DNA of 42,883 nucleotides from Gammaproteobacteria bacterium (lineage in GTDB: Bacteria; Pseudomonadota; Gammaproteobacteria; SZUA-140): assembly GCA_026982565.1 (NCBI GenBank), contig JALSGV010000183.1, positions 1 to 42,883 on the forward strand. The letters are read 5' to 3'. Of this stretch, positions 4,115-39,428 are shown piece after piece. The translations under genes were made by a program, and so were the position numbers. The notes under the pieces were generated by a model. The model saw nothing but the letters and a program-made list of their open reading frames with translations. It ran no database searches and was not told the DNA's origin. How positions within the stretch are numbered: position 1 is the stretch's first letter; each line of letters begins with the position of its first letter.

Positions 4115-4220
4115 CATTGCTACCTCAAGGCCTTTTTAGGTCATTGATGTTTGATGTTTTTCTATAGATTAGATTTGCAATTCATTGAAACAGAGATAAA
4201 TATTTTCTGAGGAGAGTGAT

Positions 4221-15646: not shown

Positions 15647-15663
15647 TTACTCTTCTCTTTCAT

Positions 15664-15712
15664 CTTTACCCTTTACCCTTTGCCCTTTACCCTTTACCCT
15701 TTACCCTTTACC
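15664..15712. repeat. Heptamer tandem repeat (CTTTACC)x7
   Basis: Seven direct 7-bp units, CTTTACC, fill 49 bp between dapD and dapE; the third unit differs by one base (CTTTGCC). On the transcribed minus strand the unit is GGTAAAG. Flanking sequence on the dapE side is also purine/pyrimidine-skewed and may hold decayed units. The array is purely intergenic and would sit in the dapD-dapE mRNA, about 25-75 nt before the dapE start codon. Confidence 0.93.
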
Positions 15713-15718
15713 CTGTGA

Positions 15719-34860: not shown

Positions 34861-37800
34861 ATGGCCAATACGTTTGTTCATCTGCATCTCCATTCCGAGT
34901 ACTCCCTGATCGACGGCCTGGTGCGCGTCAAGCCCCTGGTGAGCCGGGTGGCCGACGCGGGCATGCCTGCCGTGGCCGTTACGGATCAGTGTAATCTGTT
35001 TGCCCTGGTCAAGTTCTACCGCGCGGCCATCGCCGCTGGCGTCAAGCCCATCGTCGGTGTCGATCTCAGATTGCAGGATATAACATTGGCCAGGCCGGCG
35101 CGTCTGGTTCTGCTGTGCCAGGATCACCAGGGCTACCTCAATCTGACCCGTCTCATTTCCATGGCCTATCTCAGGGGGCAGTCTCAGGGGGCGCCCTATA
35201 TTCAGCGGGAATGGCTGCACGGTCACAGCGGGGGTCTGATCGCCCTGTCGGGTGGCCACGAAGGTGATGTGGGGCAGGCCCTGCTGGCTGGCAAAGGGGA
35301 GCTGGCGGCGCGATACCTGAGTGAGTGGGAGCAGCTGTTTCCGGGGCGCTACTATCTCCAACTCCAGCGTACCGGCCGCGTCCCCGAGGAGGACTATCTG
35401 CACGCCGTTGTGGAATTGGCCATGAAGAGCGGCGCGCCCGTGGTGGCCAGCAACGATGTGCGTTTTTTGCGGCGTGAGGATTTCGAGGCCCACGAGGCCC
35501 GGGTGTGCATTCACGACGGTCGTACGCTGCACGATCCACGCCGCCCACGCCTCTACAGCGACCAGCAGTACCTGCGCACGCCTGAGGAAATGTCCGCGCT
35601 ATTCGAGGATATCCCGGAGGCTCTGGAAAACACGGTGGAGATCGCGCGCCGCTGCAATCTGGAGCTGACGCTGGGCGAGAATGTCTTGCCTGAGTTTCCC
35701 GTTCCCGAGGGGATGACCACCACCCGTTATTTCACCCAGCAGGTGCGGGAGGGGCTGGAGCAGCGTTTGACCGTGATTCTGGGAAGTGACGATGAGGATC
35801 AAGAGGAGAAGCGACGTAGCTATCATGAGCGCCTCGATCACGAACTGGAAGTCATCAACAACATGGGTTTTCCCGGCTATTTTCTCATCGTCGCCGATTT
35901 TATCCGCTGGGCGCGGGAGAATGATGTGCCGGTAGGGCCTGGCAGGGGCTCGGGCGCCGGTTCGCTGGTGGCCTATGCTCTGGGAATTACCAACCTGGAT
36001 CCATTGGCTTACGATCTGCTATTCGAGCGTTTTCTCAATCCTGAGCGCGTCTCCCTGCCGGATTTCGACGTGGATTTCTGCATGGACGGGCGCGACCGGG
36101 TCATCGAGTACGTGGCGGAACGCTATGGCCGCGAGCGCGTGGCGCAGATCATCACCTACGGCACCATGGCCGCCAAGGCGGTGGTGCGCGACGTGGGGCG
36201 GGTGCTGGGCAACCCCTACGGCTTCGTGGACCAGATCGCCAAGCTGATTCCCTTCGATCTGGGGATCACCCTGGATAAGGCCCTGGAACAGGAAGAGCAG
36301 CTGCGCCGCCGCTACGAAGAGGAAGAGGATGTCCATGCCCTCATCGAGCTGGCCCGTTCCCTGGAAGGCTTGGCGCGCAACGCGGGAAAACATGCCGGTG
36401 GCGTGGTGATCGCCCCCTCGGCCCTGACGGATTTCACGCCGCTGTACTGTGAACAGGGCTCCACGGCGCCGGTCACCCAACTGGACAAGGACGATATCGA
36501 GGCAGTGGGGCTGGTGAAGTTCGATTTCCTGGGCCTGCGCACCCTGACCATCATCGACTGGGCCGTCAAGACCATCAACCGCCAGCTTGCCGACAGGGGC
36601 GGGCCGCCGGTCGATATCGACGCCATACCCCTCGACGACGAGGCGACCTACGAATTACTCAAAAGCAGCCAGACCACGGCCGTCTTCCAGCTCGAGTCGC
36701 GCGGCATGAAAGATCTCATCAAGCGCCAGCAGCCCGATTGTTTCGAGGACATCATCGCCCTGGTGGCCCTTTTCCGGCCCGGCCCCCTGCAGTCCGGCAT
36801 GGTGGACGACTTCATCGACCGCAAGCATGGCCGAGCGCGCGTCAACTATCCCCATCCCGAGCTGGAGCCCATCCTGAAGCCCACCTACGGCGTGATCCTT
36901 TACCAGGAACAGGTCATGCAGATCGCCCAGGTGCTGGCGGGCTATACCCTGGGGCAGGCCGACCTGCTCAGGCGCGCCATGGGCAAGAAGAAGCCAGAGG
37001 AGATGGCCAAGCAGCGCAGTATCTTTCTGGAAGGCGCGGAAGGGCGTGGGGTGGAGCGCGAGCAGGCGGCCTACATCTTCGATCTCATGGAGAAGTTCGC
37101 CGGTTATGGTTTCAACAAGTCGCATTCCGCAGCCTACGCCCTCATCGCCTACCAGACCGCATGGCTCAAGGCCCATTATCCCGCCGCCTTCATGGCCGCC
37201 GTGTTGTCCTCGGACATGGACAATACGGACAAGATCGTCATGTTCATGGACGAATGCCGCTGCATGGGCCTGGCGGTGGAGCCTCCCAATATCAACCGCT
37301 GCGACTACGTCTTCACCGTCAGTGACGACGACACGATTCTCTATGGCCTGGGCGCCATCAAGGGCGTGGGGGCCGCGGCCCTCGACGGCATCCTGGAAGA
37401 GCGCCGCCGGCATGGCGAGTTCCGCGACCTGCTGGACCTGTGCAAGCGCATCGACCTGCGCAAGGCCAACCGCCGCGTATTGGAGGCCCTCATCCGGTGC
37501 GGCGCCCTGGATGTCTTCGACGACAACCGGGCGCGCACCATGGCGTTGCTGGGCAAGACCCTGCAGATGGCGGAGCGCCACCTGCGTGACCAGGCCGCGG
37601 GACAGAGCGATCTCTTCGGCGCCGCCATGGGGCCTGCGCCGGATGGGGCGGTTCAGTGCCGCGTGGAAATACCGGATATTCAGCCCTGGAGCGAGGAGCA
37701 GCGCCTGCTGGGCGAGAAGGAAACCCTGGGCCTGTACCTCACCGGCCATCCCGTGGCGCGCTATGAGAAGGAGCTGGCGGCATTCATCACGGCGCGCATC

Positions 37801-38331
37801 AAGGACCTCAATCCGCGCCGCGAGCAGAGGGTCGTCATCGCCGGCCTGATCGTCGCCATGCGCGCCATGAACACCAAGCGGGGCGAGCGTTTCGCCTTCG
37901 TGACCCTGGACGACGGCACCGGGCGCCTGGAACTGGCCGTCTTCGCCGAGGCCTACCGCAGCTACCGCGATCATCTCGTCAAGGACCGCCTCATCGTGGT
38001 GGAGGGCACGGCCAGCGCCGACGAATACACCGGGGGCTTCCGCATCGGGGTGGAGAAGATTTTCGATATCAATCAGGCGCGGGAGATCTTTGCCAAGCGC
38101 CTGGAGATCGATCTCGGCCGGCGTCCCGTGGAAAAAAGCGTCAGTCACACCCTGGTCGAGATCCTGGCGCCCTTCCGCGAGGGCGACTGCCCCGTATGGA
38201 TCAATTGCACGAACAACACCGCCCGCGCCTCCCTGGCCCTGGGCAGGGAGTGGCAGGTGCATCCCACCGACGAACTGCTGCACCGTCTGGAGGAGATGGC
38301 CGAGGCGGAGGATGTGCGGGTGGTTTATTGA
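34861..38331 (+). CDS. dnaE: DNA polymerase III alpha subunit
   Basis: The replicative polymerase. At 1156 residues it matches E. coli DnaE (1160). The PHP domain opens with FVHLHLHSEYSLIDG; the palm has the catalytic Asp pair PDFDVDF (D401, D403) and the third Asp D555 in VKFDFLGLRTL, the same numbers as in E. coli. A clamp-binding QSDLF at 915-919, the OB fold and a C-terminal tau-binding region follow. The ribosome-binding site is weak, so coupling to rnhB is likely. Its stop is 10 bp before a heptamer repeat array. Confidence 0.98.
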   Translation: MANTFVHLHLHSEYSLIDGLVRVKPLVSRVADAGMPAVAVTDQCNLFALVKFYRAAIAAGVKPIVGVDLRLQDITLARPARLVLLCQDHQGYLNLTRLISMAYLRGQSQGAPYIQREWLHGHSGGLIALSGGHEGDVGQALLAGKGELAARYLSEWEQLFPGRYYLQLQRTGRVPEEDYLHAVVELAMKSGAPVVASNDVRFLRREDFEAHEARVCIHDGRTLHDPRRPRLYSDQQYLRTPEEMSALFEDIPEALENTVEIARRCNLELTLGENVLPEFPVPEGMTTTRYFTQQVREGLEQRLTVILGSDDEDQEEKRRSYHERLDHELEVINNMGFPGYFLIVADFIRWARENDVPVGPGRGSGAGSLVAYALGITNLDPLAYDLLFERFLNPERVSLPDFDVDFCMDGRDRVIEYVAERYGRERVAQIITYGTMAAKAVVRDVGRVLGNPYGFVDQIAKLIPFDLGITLDKALEQEEQLRRRYEEEEDVHALIELARSLEGLARNAGKHAGGVVIAPSALTDFTPLYCEQGSTAPVTQLDKDDIEAVGLVKFDFLGLRTLTIIDWAVKTINRQLADRGGPPVDIDAIPLDDEATYELLKSSQTTAVFQLESRGMKDLIKRQQPDCFEDIIALVALFRPGPLQSGMVDDFIDRKHGRARVNYPHPELEPILKPTYGVILYQEQVMQIAQVLAGYTLGQADLLRRAMGKKKPEEMAKQRSIFLEGAEGRGVEREQAAYIFDLMEKFAGYGFNKSHSAAYALIAYQTAWLKAHYPAAFMAAVLSSDMDNTDKIVMFMDECRCMGLAVEPPNINRCDYVFTVSDDDTILYGLGAIKGVGAAALDGILEERRRHGEFRDLLDLCKRIDLRKANRRVLEALIRCGALDVFDDNRARTMALLGKTLQMAERHLRDQAAGQSDLFGAAMGPAPDGAVQCRVEIPDIQPWSEEQRLLGEKETLGLYLTGHPVARYEKELAAFITARIKDLNPRREQRVVIAGLIVAMRAMNTKRGERFAFVTLDDGTGRLELAVFAEAYRSYRDHLVKDRLIVVEGTASADEYTGGFRIGVEKIFDINQAREIFAKRLEIDLGRRPVEKSVSHTLVEILAPFREGDCPVWINCTNNTARASLALGREWQVHPTDELLHRLEEMAEAEDVRVVY

Positions 38332-38341
38332 GAAGGGGGTA

Positions 38342-38456
38342 AGATACAAGATACAAGGGACAAGGGACAAGGGACAAGAGAAAGACGCTCGAAGTGTGGC
38401 ATCCCATTGCCCCCTTGTATCTTTCCCCTTGTATCTTGTATCTTGTATCTTTCCTT
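38342..38456. repeat. Inverted heptamer-repeat arrays upstream of accA
   Basis: The left array (38342-38383) is AGATACA twice, AGGGACA three times, then AGAGAAA. The right array (38415-38456) reads TTGTATC, TTTCCCC, TTGTATC three times, TTTCCTT, that is, the same heptamers in inverted order. They enclose about 31 bp. GATACAAGATACAAGGG at 38343-38359 is the exact complement of 38426-38442, so the segment can fold with a perfect 17-bp stem and further pairing after a 7-nt bulge. It takes up most of the accA leader. Confidence 0.93.
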
Positions 38457-38471
38457 TTTACTCAGATCAAA

Positions 38472-39428
38472 ATGAAACTAAGCTTCCTCGAATTCGAACA
38501 ACCCATCGCTGAACTGCAGGCCAAGATCGACGAGTTGCGCAATGTGGGTGATGACAACGAACTCAACATCAGCGAGGAGATTTCCCGCCTCGAGGCCAAG
38601 TGCGCCAAGCTGACGGAGTCGATATTCTCGTCCCTCAATGCCTGGCAGATCTCCCAGATGGCGCGGCATCCCCAGCGTCCTTATACCTACGACTACATCG
38701 AGCGTCTTCTTACCGATTTCGAGGAATTGCATGGCGACCGCTGCTATGCCGACGATTATGCCATCGTGGGTGGGATCGGCAGGCTGGACGGGCGTCCGGT
38801 GATGGTCATCGGGCACCAGAAGGGCCGAGACACCAAGGAAAAAGTCAAGCGTAATTTCGGCATGCCCCGTCCCGAGGGCTACCGCAAGGCCCTGCGGCTC
38901 ATGGAAACAGCGGAGCGCTTTCGTCTGCCCATTCTCACATTTATCGATACGCCCGGCGCCTATCCCGGCGTGGGCGCGGAGGAGCGGGGGCAGAGCGAGG
39001 CCATTGCACGCAACCTGCGCGTCATGGCAACACTGCGCACGCCCATTATCTGCACGGTGATCGGTGAGGGCGGTTCAGGTGGGGCCCTGGCCATCGGCGT
39101 AGGAGATCACCTGGGCATGCTGGAATACAGCACCTATTCCGTCATCTCCCCCGAGGGTTGCGCCTCCATTCTGTGGAAGAGCGCGGACAAGGCCTCTGAC
39201 GCGGCGGAGGCCATGGGCATCACATCCAAGCGCCTCAGCGAAATCGGCCTCATCGACGAGATCATTGCCGAGCCCATGGGCGGCGCGCATCGTGACTATG
39301 ACCAGATGGCCGAGTCCGTCAAACAATCCATTACCAACACCCTGTTACGCCTGGACAGCCAGACCCTCGACGAGCTGGTGGAGGCGCGCTACCAGAAACT
39401 GATGGGTTATGGCGTCTTCAACGCCTGA
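38472..39428 (+). CDS. accA: Acetyl-CoA carboxylase carboxyltransferase alpha subunit
   Basis: With AccD, moves the carboxyl group from biotin to acetyl-CoA to make malonyl-CoA. The 318-residue product matches E. coli AccA (319), opening [19 protein letters not shown], with the carboxyltransferase core [18 protein letters not shown] and [16 protein letters not shown]. The open frame extends to 38394 through the repeats but that is not coding. The ATG at 38472 has no clear ribosome-binding site; the repeat array sits 15 bp before it. tilS follows after 32 bp. Confidence 0.97.

Follow-up and report, generated by a model that had tools for sequence, protein, structure and literature searches.

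Two arrays of heptamers face each other in the gap between dnaE and accA, and the question raised by this locus is whether the long hairpin that they can form serves one of these genes, ending dnaE transcription or setting accA expression, or belongs to a process that acts on the whole genome. The stretch of DNA analysed (the window, 42,883 nucleotides) is contig C183 of the gammaproteobacterial draft genome G000, which comprises 2.64 Mb in 214 contigs. We put a probability of roughly one half on the reading that the locus is one of dozens of convergent heptamer pairs evolving as DNA through slippage and template switching, and not an accA switch. The features concerned, including the second array of the window, are the following.

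15657 to 15714, + strand: unpaired heptad array of the CTTTACC type between dapD and dapE
34861 to 38331, + strand: dnaE, the upstream gene (profile match NF004226, 1572 bits)
38332 to 38459, + strand: the whole predicted hairpin, with inner hairpins in addition to helices of 8, 18, 7 and 7 bp
38341 to 38378, − strand: left arm, composed of five to six heptads at a 7-bp phase and reading AAGATACAAGATACAAGGGACAAGGGACAAGGGACAAG on the + strand
38379 to 38413, no strand: loop of 35 bp, locus-specific, with no 12-mer in common with the loops of the other mirrored loci of this genome
38414 to 38454, + strand: right arm, CTT-phased, composed of CTTGTAT, CTTTCCC, three further CTTGTAT and CTTTCC
38472 to 39428, + strand: accA, the downstream gene (profile match TIGR00513, 531 bits)

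The two arms occupy the 140-bp gap between dnaE and accA. The left arm is purine-rich on the coding strand, has its first base 9 bp past the dnaE stop codon and contains, on the + strand, two GATACAA units (38343-38356) followed by three GGGACAA units (38357-38377). The right arm, pyrimidine-rich on the coding strand and ending about 20 bp upstream of accA, reads on the minus strand as four GATACAA and one GGGGAAA word (38414-38451). The original prediction had named GATACAA and GGGACAA as the units of the two arrays; GATACAA is the unit common to the two arms, and GGGACAA is confined to the left one. It had also described a 17-bp stem, and a long helix is present, although the longest unbroken one measures 18 bp (38341-38358 paired with 38434-38451), with the helices of 8, 7 and 7 bp flanking it. 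Complementarity within the inverted repeat amounts to 83% when 41 nt are considered and to 88% when 33 nt are considered. The predicted RNA fold of 38332-38471 on the + strand reached −60.7 kcal/mol with a z of −7.4, and none of 200 shuffled sequences folded as well, in agreement with the expected facing arrays and hairpin; the − strand of the same segment gave a z of −6.2.

The right arm is followed by the T-rich stretch TTTCCTTTTT, with 6 T in 8 positions. Promoter and terminator scans of 38000-38800 found none, and Rfam at permissive E-values returned just eukaryotic miRNA-precursor models far under their gathering scores, matches that are those of generic long hairpins. The observation that accA has no normal ribosome-binding site held, as no Shine-Dalgarno-like sequence precedes it; judged by eye, array-free accA orthologues have none either. 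The lack of such a motif was not significantly linked to arrays (6/27 genes versus 266/732, p 0.16), and the idea that the arrays caused its loss at accA was dropped on these two grounds. Several relatives (L062, L071, L086, L098) carry in the dnaE-accA gap a TAGAAT box which, from its sequence, looks like the −10 element of an accA promoter; the matching position in the window is the loop, where TAGAAT is absent.

The suspicion that a genome-wide process makes heptamers was borne out by the search for arrays outside the dnaE-accA gap, which had been set beforehand as the test and found enrichment. With four CTT triplets spaced at 7-bp phase as the pattern and its reversed form as the control, we counted 111 matches versus 2 in G000; the arrays examined in detail are among the matches listed, 100 of the 111, covering the contigs up to C183. 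Arrays of at least four units numbered 41 versus 2 for the control (among the matches listed). The same-genus genome G001 gave 58 matches versus 0, and in it period 7, together with its multiple 14, stands out. Several genomes of the same family also have an excess, with other words, and in the class as a whole a five-unit pattern was present in 41 of 185 genomes, with counts of 168, 82 and 43 versus 0 in genomes with zero control matches. In other genomes of the class the reversed control equals or exceeds the CTT pattern (in G102, G140 and G190 it is the commoner of the two), which points to other heptamer cores or dialects there. Different words were found at gatA-gatB in G006 (GTGAGGC), at metF in G011 (ATCTGAY) and at accA in an Ectothiorhodospiraceae contig (AAGTGGC), and at these sites the array is absent in many family members.

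The arrays consist of tandem 7-nt units that are heterogeneous at some positions, and they are mosaics of several words rather than simple repeats of one. In G000, among the matches listed, 25 distinct words of 256 possible, the CTT core being fixed by the search pattern itself, account for the whole set of 187 internal words, 111 of which are CTTGTAT, CTTGTAC or CTTTCCC. The other array that had been predicted in the window is present between dapD and dapE, the identities of both genes being confirmed; they lie on the minus strand, and the array starts 10 bp from the dapD stop codon. Apart from this array and the dnaE-accA pair, the window contains no strong 7-bp array; a weaker TTGATGT doublet lies at 4144. 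In 290,764 bp of G000 sampled without bias there were zero arrays of at least four units, and the 13-kb contig C111 (1-13347, L022) alone has eight heptad arrays of at least three units, which shows that arrays are clustered along the genome.

As anticipated, adjacent arrays favour inverted pairs: 31 of 34 in G000 and G001 taken together (among the matches listed) are convergent, the purine-rich AAG arm coming first and the CTT arm after it. They are over-represented in non-coding regions, since 28/29 clusters in G000 (among the matches listed) and 26/28 in G001 fall outside genes called with a home-made hexamer model (792 genes, 87% coding). When 66 arrays were read in the coding-strand sense, 26 were of the AAG type near a stop codon and 24 of the CTT type near a start codon, with 16 exceptions; 50 of the 66 thus obey a rule by which the coding strand bears the purine unit near stop codons and the opposite strand bears it near start codons. 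Clusters of G000 lie between co-directional genes in 23/25 scored cases versus 158/223 background gaps (p 0.017), an enrichment missing in G001 (16/22 versus 97/139). The gene pairs flanking mirrored arrays include dnaE-accA, gatA-gatB, pheS-pheT, proA-nadD and ahcY-metF, where metF and pheT are putative names based on sequence. Inspection by eye of the outer ends in G000 showed that the CTT arm often runs on in phase as CTG and that CAG often precedes the AAG arm. Two genes of G000 which we take from their sequence to be tuf copies, on contigs C89 and C99 (98-155; L215, L216), each have a near-identical mirrored array downstream of the stop codon, which in one copy precedes a tRNA-Trp-like gene and in the other rpsJ; the array thus seems to travel with tuf in gene conversion.

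Arms and loops were compared for 18 of the 19 mirrored loci of G000, C99 being dropped as the tuf duplicate of C89, and for 12 of 12 loci of G001. The arms of one locus matched each other better than shuffled partners in both genomes (292 versus 226 ± 16 in G000, with 0 of 10,000 shuffles as good; 194 versus 134 ± 12 in G001, with 1 of 10,000 as good). Right arms of different loci share a 12-mer in 79/153 pairs in G000 and in 29/66 in G001, and loops do so in 0/153 and 0/66, respectively. This suggests that arms are rewritten around native DNA and that the hairpin has not moved as a unit.

The comparison of G000 with G001 (114 reciprocal best hits, median 83% protein identity) showed that orthologous gaps keep the inverted layout with words altered in both arms. 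At proA-nadD, where the loop is homologous between the two genomes, G001 has a perfect 37-bp inverted repeat in words unlike those of G000. Both arms are not kept at every common gap, as ftsY-ftsE has a single array in G000 and a pair in G001. The proA-nadD gap was picked by orthology and is hence free of the CTT search bias. Across ten genomes, 3 of 20,000 re-pairings at this gap were as good as the own arms, although the own arm was the single best partner in 5/10 genomes only. Permutations in smaller sets gave 1/24 at pheS and 1/6 at both metF and gatB, the latter two being too small to weigh alone. At dnaE-accA itself, with relatives' spacers taken from loci L062, L063, L066 and L068, own arms were not the best in five genomes (47/120 permutations as good). 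Six proA-nadD gaps from one genus differ at the AAG/CTT columns in 0.05 and 0.056 of pairwise comparisons versus 0.30 and 0.40 at the other four heptad positions (p 1e-5), and the gap length is identical, 84 bp, in 5/7 genomes of genus g3 (G003, G009, G013, G016, G019), most words being different.

Whether such arms are maintained as RNA or as DNA can be read from their mismatches, since upkeep of an RNA helix would leave more G.U than A.C mismatches in the transcript sense and matching as DNA would leave both equal. Among 1013 aligned arm positions, 888 were matched and 29 were G.U, 33 A.C and 63 other mismatches (p 0.70), so that pairing looks maintained as DNA; with 62 informative mismatches a weak bias would escape detection. 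This result favours matching of the arms at the DNA level and is compatible with weak RNA selection. A canonical G4 motif occurred in just 2/41 arrays of G000 (among the matches listed) and 0/38 of G001, which rules out quadruplexes as the common cause.

These data allow us to weigh the other ways in which such a hairpin could have come about. It could be kept by selection as an intercistronic RNA element, that is an mRNA stabiliser or processing site, a REP-like element or an element attenuating the gene that follows, and the very stable predicted folds, the position of the arms next to stop and start codons, the matching of arms worded differently across genera and the co-directional preference in G000 all speak for it. 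The similar numbers of G.U and A.C mismatches stand against this possibility, as do the missing preference in G001, the lack of a common function among flanking genes and the many family members in which pheS-pheT and gatA-gatB have no array or nearly no gap, and we consider it rather doubtful. A rho-independent terminator for dnaE, in line with the original suggestion that the hairpin could end dnaE transcription, would fit the T-rich tail after the right arm; such a tail, however, follows only 3/22 co-directional mirrored loci, accA among the three. Unlike terminators of this kind, which have a compact GC-rich stem and a T-run, stem and loop here far exceed the canonical length and the scan detected none, while arrays are also found within pheS-pheT and gatA-gatB, pairs that are usually cotranscribed, making a terminator very unlikely. 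The proposed role in setting accA expression fared no better, given the absence of an RNA-type bias and of a significant link between arrays and the missing Shine-Dalgarno motif, and the data lend no support to a switch or terminator dedicated to accA.

Two further alternatives concern the DNA itself. REP and BIME palindromes are dispersed intercistronic hairpins associated with RAYT transposases, and insertion of a mobile palindrome of REP or MITE type at dnaE-accA would fit the 12-mers common to the arms of many loci and the frequent CAG...CTG outer ends. In REP and BIME elements the sequence of the element is common, whereas here there is a heptad phase and the loops differ from locus to locus, with homology at orthologous ones such as proA-nadD; zero Y1_Tnp (RAYT) matches in this genome, which is 90.8% complete, also make an insertion highly improbable. 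The AAG/CTT heptads could instead be bound, in phase, by a DNA- or RNA-binding protein that keeps both the core and the 7-bp spacing constant, which agrees with the conserved columns and the constant 84-bp gap of proA-nadD; we regard this as quite unlikely in view of the very different cores, GTGAGGC and ATCTGAY, in genomes of the same family.

According to the preferred reading, replication slippage of 7 nt would generate and copy the heptads, words would be swapped between arrays at different loci, and template switching between arms (quasi-palindrome correction) would copy one arm into the other and keep the mirror layout. The hairpin would be tolerated in intergenic gaps, its effect on the dnaE-accA transcript being at most modest. 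Word exchange between loci would be needed because the 84-bp constancy, the AAG/CTT core and the common vocabulary are unexplained by slippage alone, and it is the weakest step of the account. Template switching may likewise be proposed from the matched arms. As described in part of a study (PMC8794818), this process can both give rise to hairpin stems and preserve them, through compensatory changes of several bases at once. Parts of two papers (PMC4692102, PMC4679880) cite Mrazek for the finding that, among long simple repeats, heptamers are the most abundant class in many bacteria, and for a suggested tie to the length of DNA held by the polymerase. The failure of own arms as best partners at dnaE-accA, and in half of the ten genomes at proA-nadD, speaks against slippage and template switching, as does the clustering of arrays, for which this model does not account.

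Short tandem heptamers are scattered in the non-coding DNA of heterocystous cyanobacteria (STRR), and by description alone the present arrays resemble them, although STRR are not known to form inverted pairs. Calothrix heptanucleotides are cited in part of the study by Rehm et al. (2015, PMC4692102), excerpts of which describe heptameric repeats lying between the genes of Xanthomonas and Nostoc, with the units GGGAATC and GGGGA(C/T)T and with 70 and 75 convergent inverted pairs in Xanthomonas; quadruplexes were proposed and, in these excerpts, a function was not found. As far as the excerpts go, our arrays share with them the heptad period, the heterogeneous units, the intergenic location, the frequent convergent pairs, the placement of the repeat on the coding strand close to stop codons but on the non-coding strand close to start codons, and a position kept among close relatives with varying length and sequence; the location mostly between aligned ORFs is seen here in G000, with no enrichment in G001. 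Unlike the repeats in those excerpts, ours have AAG-cored units almost never capable of forming G4, words mixed within each array, arms matched locus by locus, native loops and no G.U bias. They are a variant of the Xanthomonas/Nostoc kind in which most words cannot form quadruplexes, the arrays are mosaic and the arms are matched. In part of MacGregor (2015, PMC4679880), 169 sets of TAACTGA direct repeats, with one indirect repeat, are described from Beggiatoaceae, sulfur-oxidizing Gammaproteobacteria, which like ours are intergenic heptamers beside start codons and in some sets are broken by related 7-mers, as in the word mixing seen here; as described there, the unit is fixed and the repeats are direct and unmirrored, in contrast to our mixed units and inverted pairs. 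In the open-access papers searched we found no description of AAG/CTT-cored mosaic arrays.

The published cases of intergenic heptamers were ascribed to G-quadruplexes or left unexplained, and the same layout built from mostly quadruplex-incapable units implies that the common cause lies elsewhere, in the 7-nt period and the pairing of arms. A dedicated process may write and rewrite 7-nt words with a fixed three-base core in intergenic gaps, words from a genome-wide pool replacing each other at constant array length and being copied into the opposite arm. We consider this unlikely; if true, it would give lineage-specific dialects, and ordinary slippage would not suffice for it without a further activity, templated or recombination-based. 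Mirrored arms with native loops and no excess of G.U mismatches make it possible to ask, in nature and across a whole genome, whether hairpins arise and persist through replication template switching or through selection on RNA.
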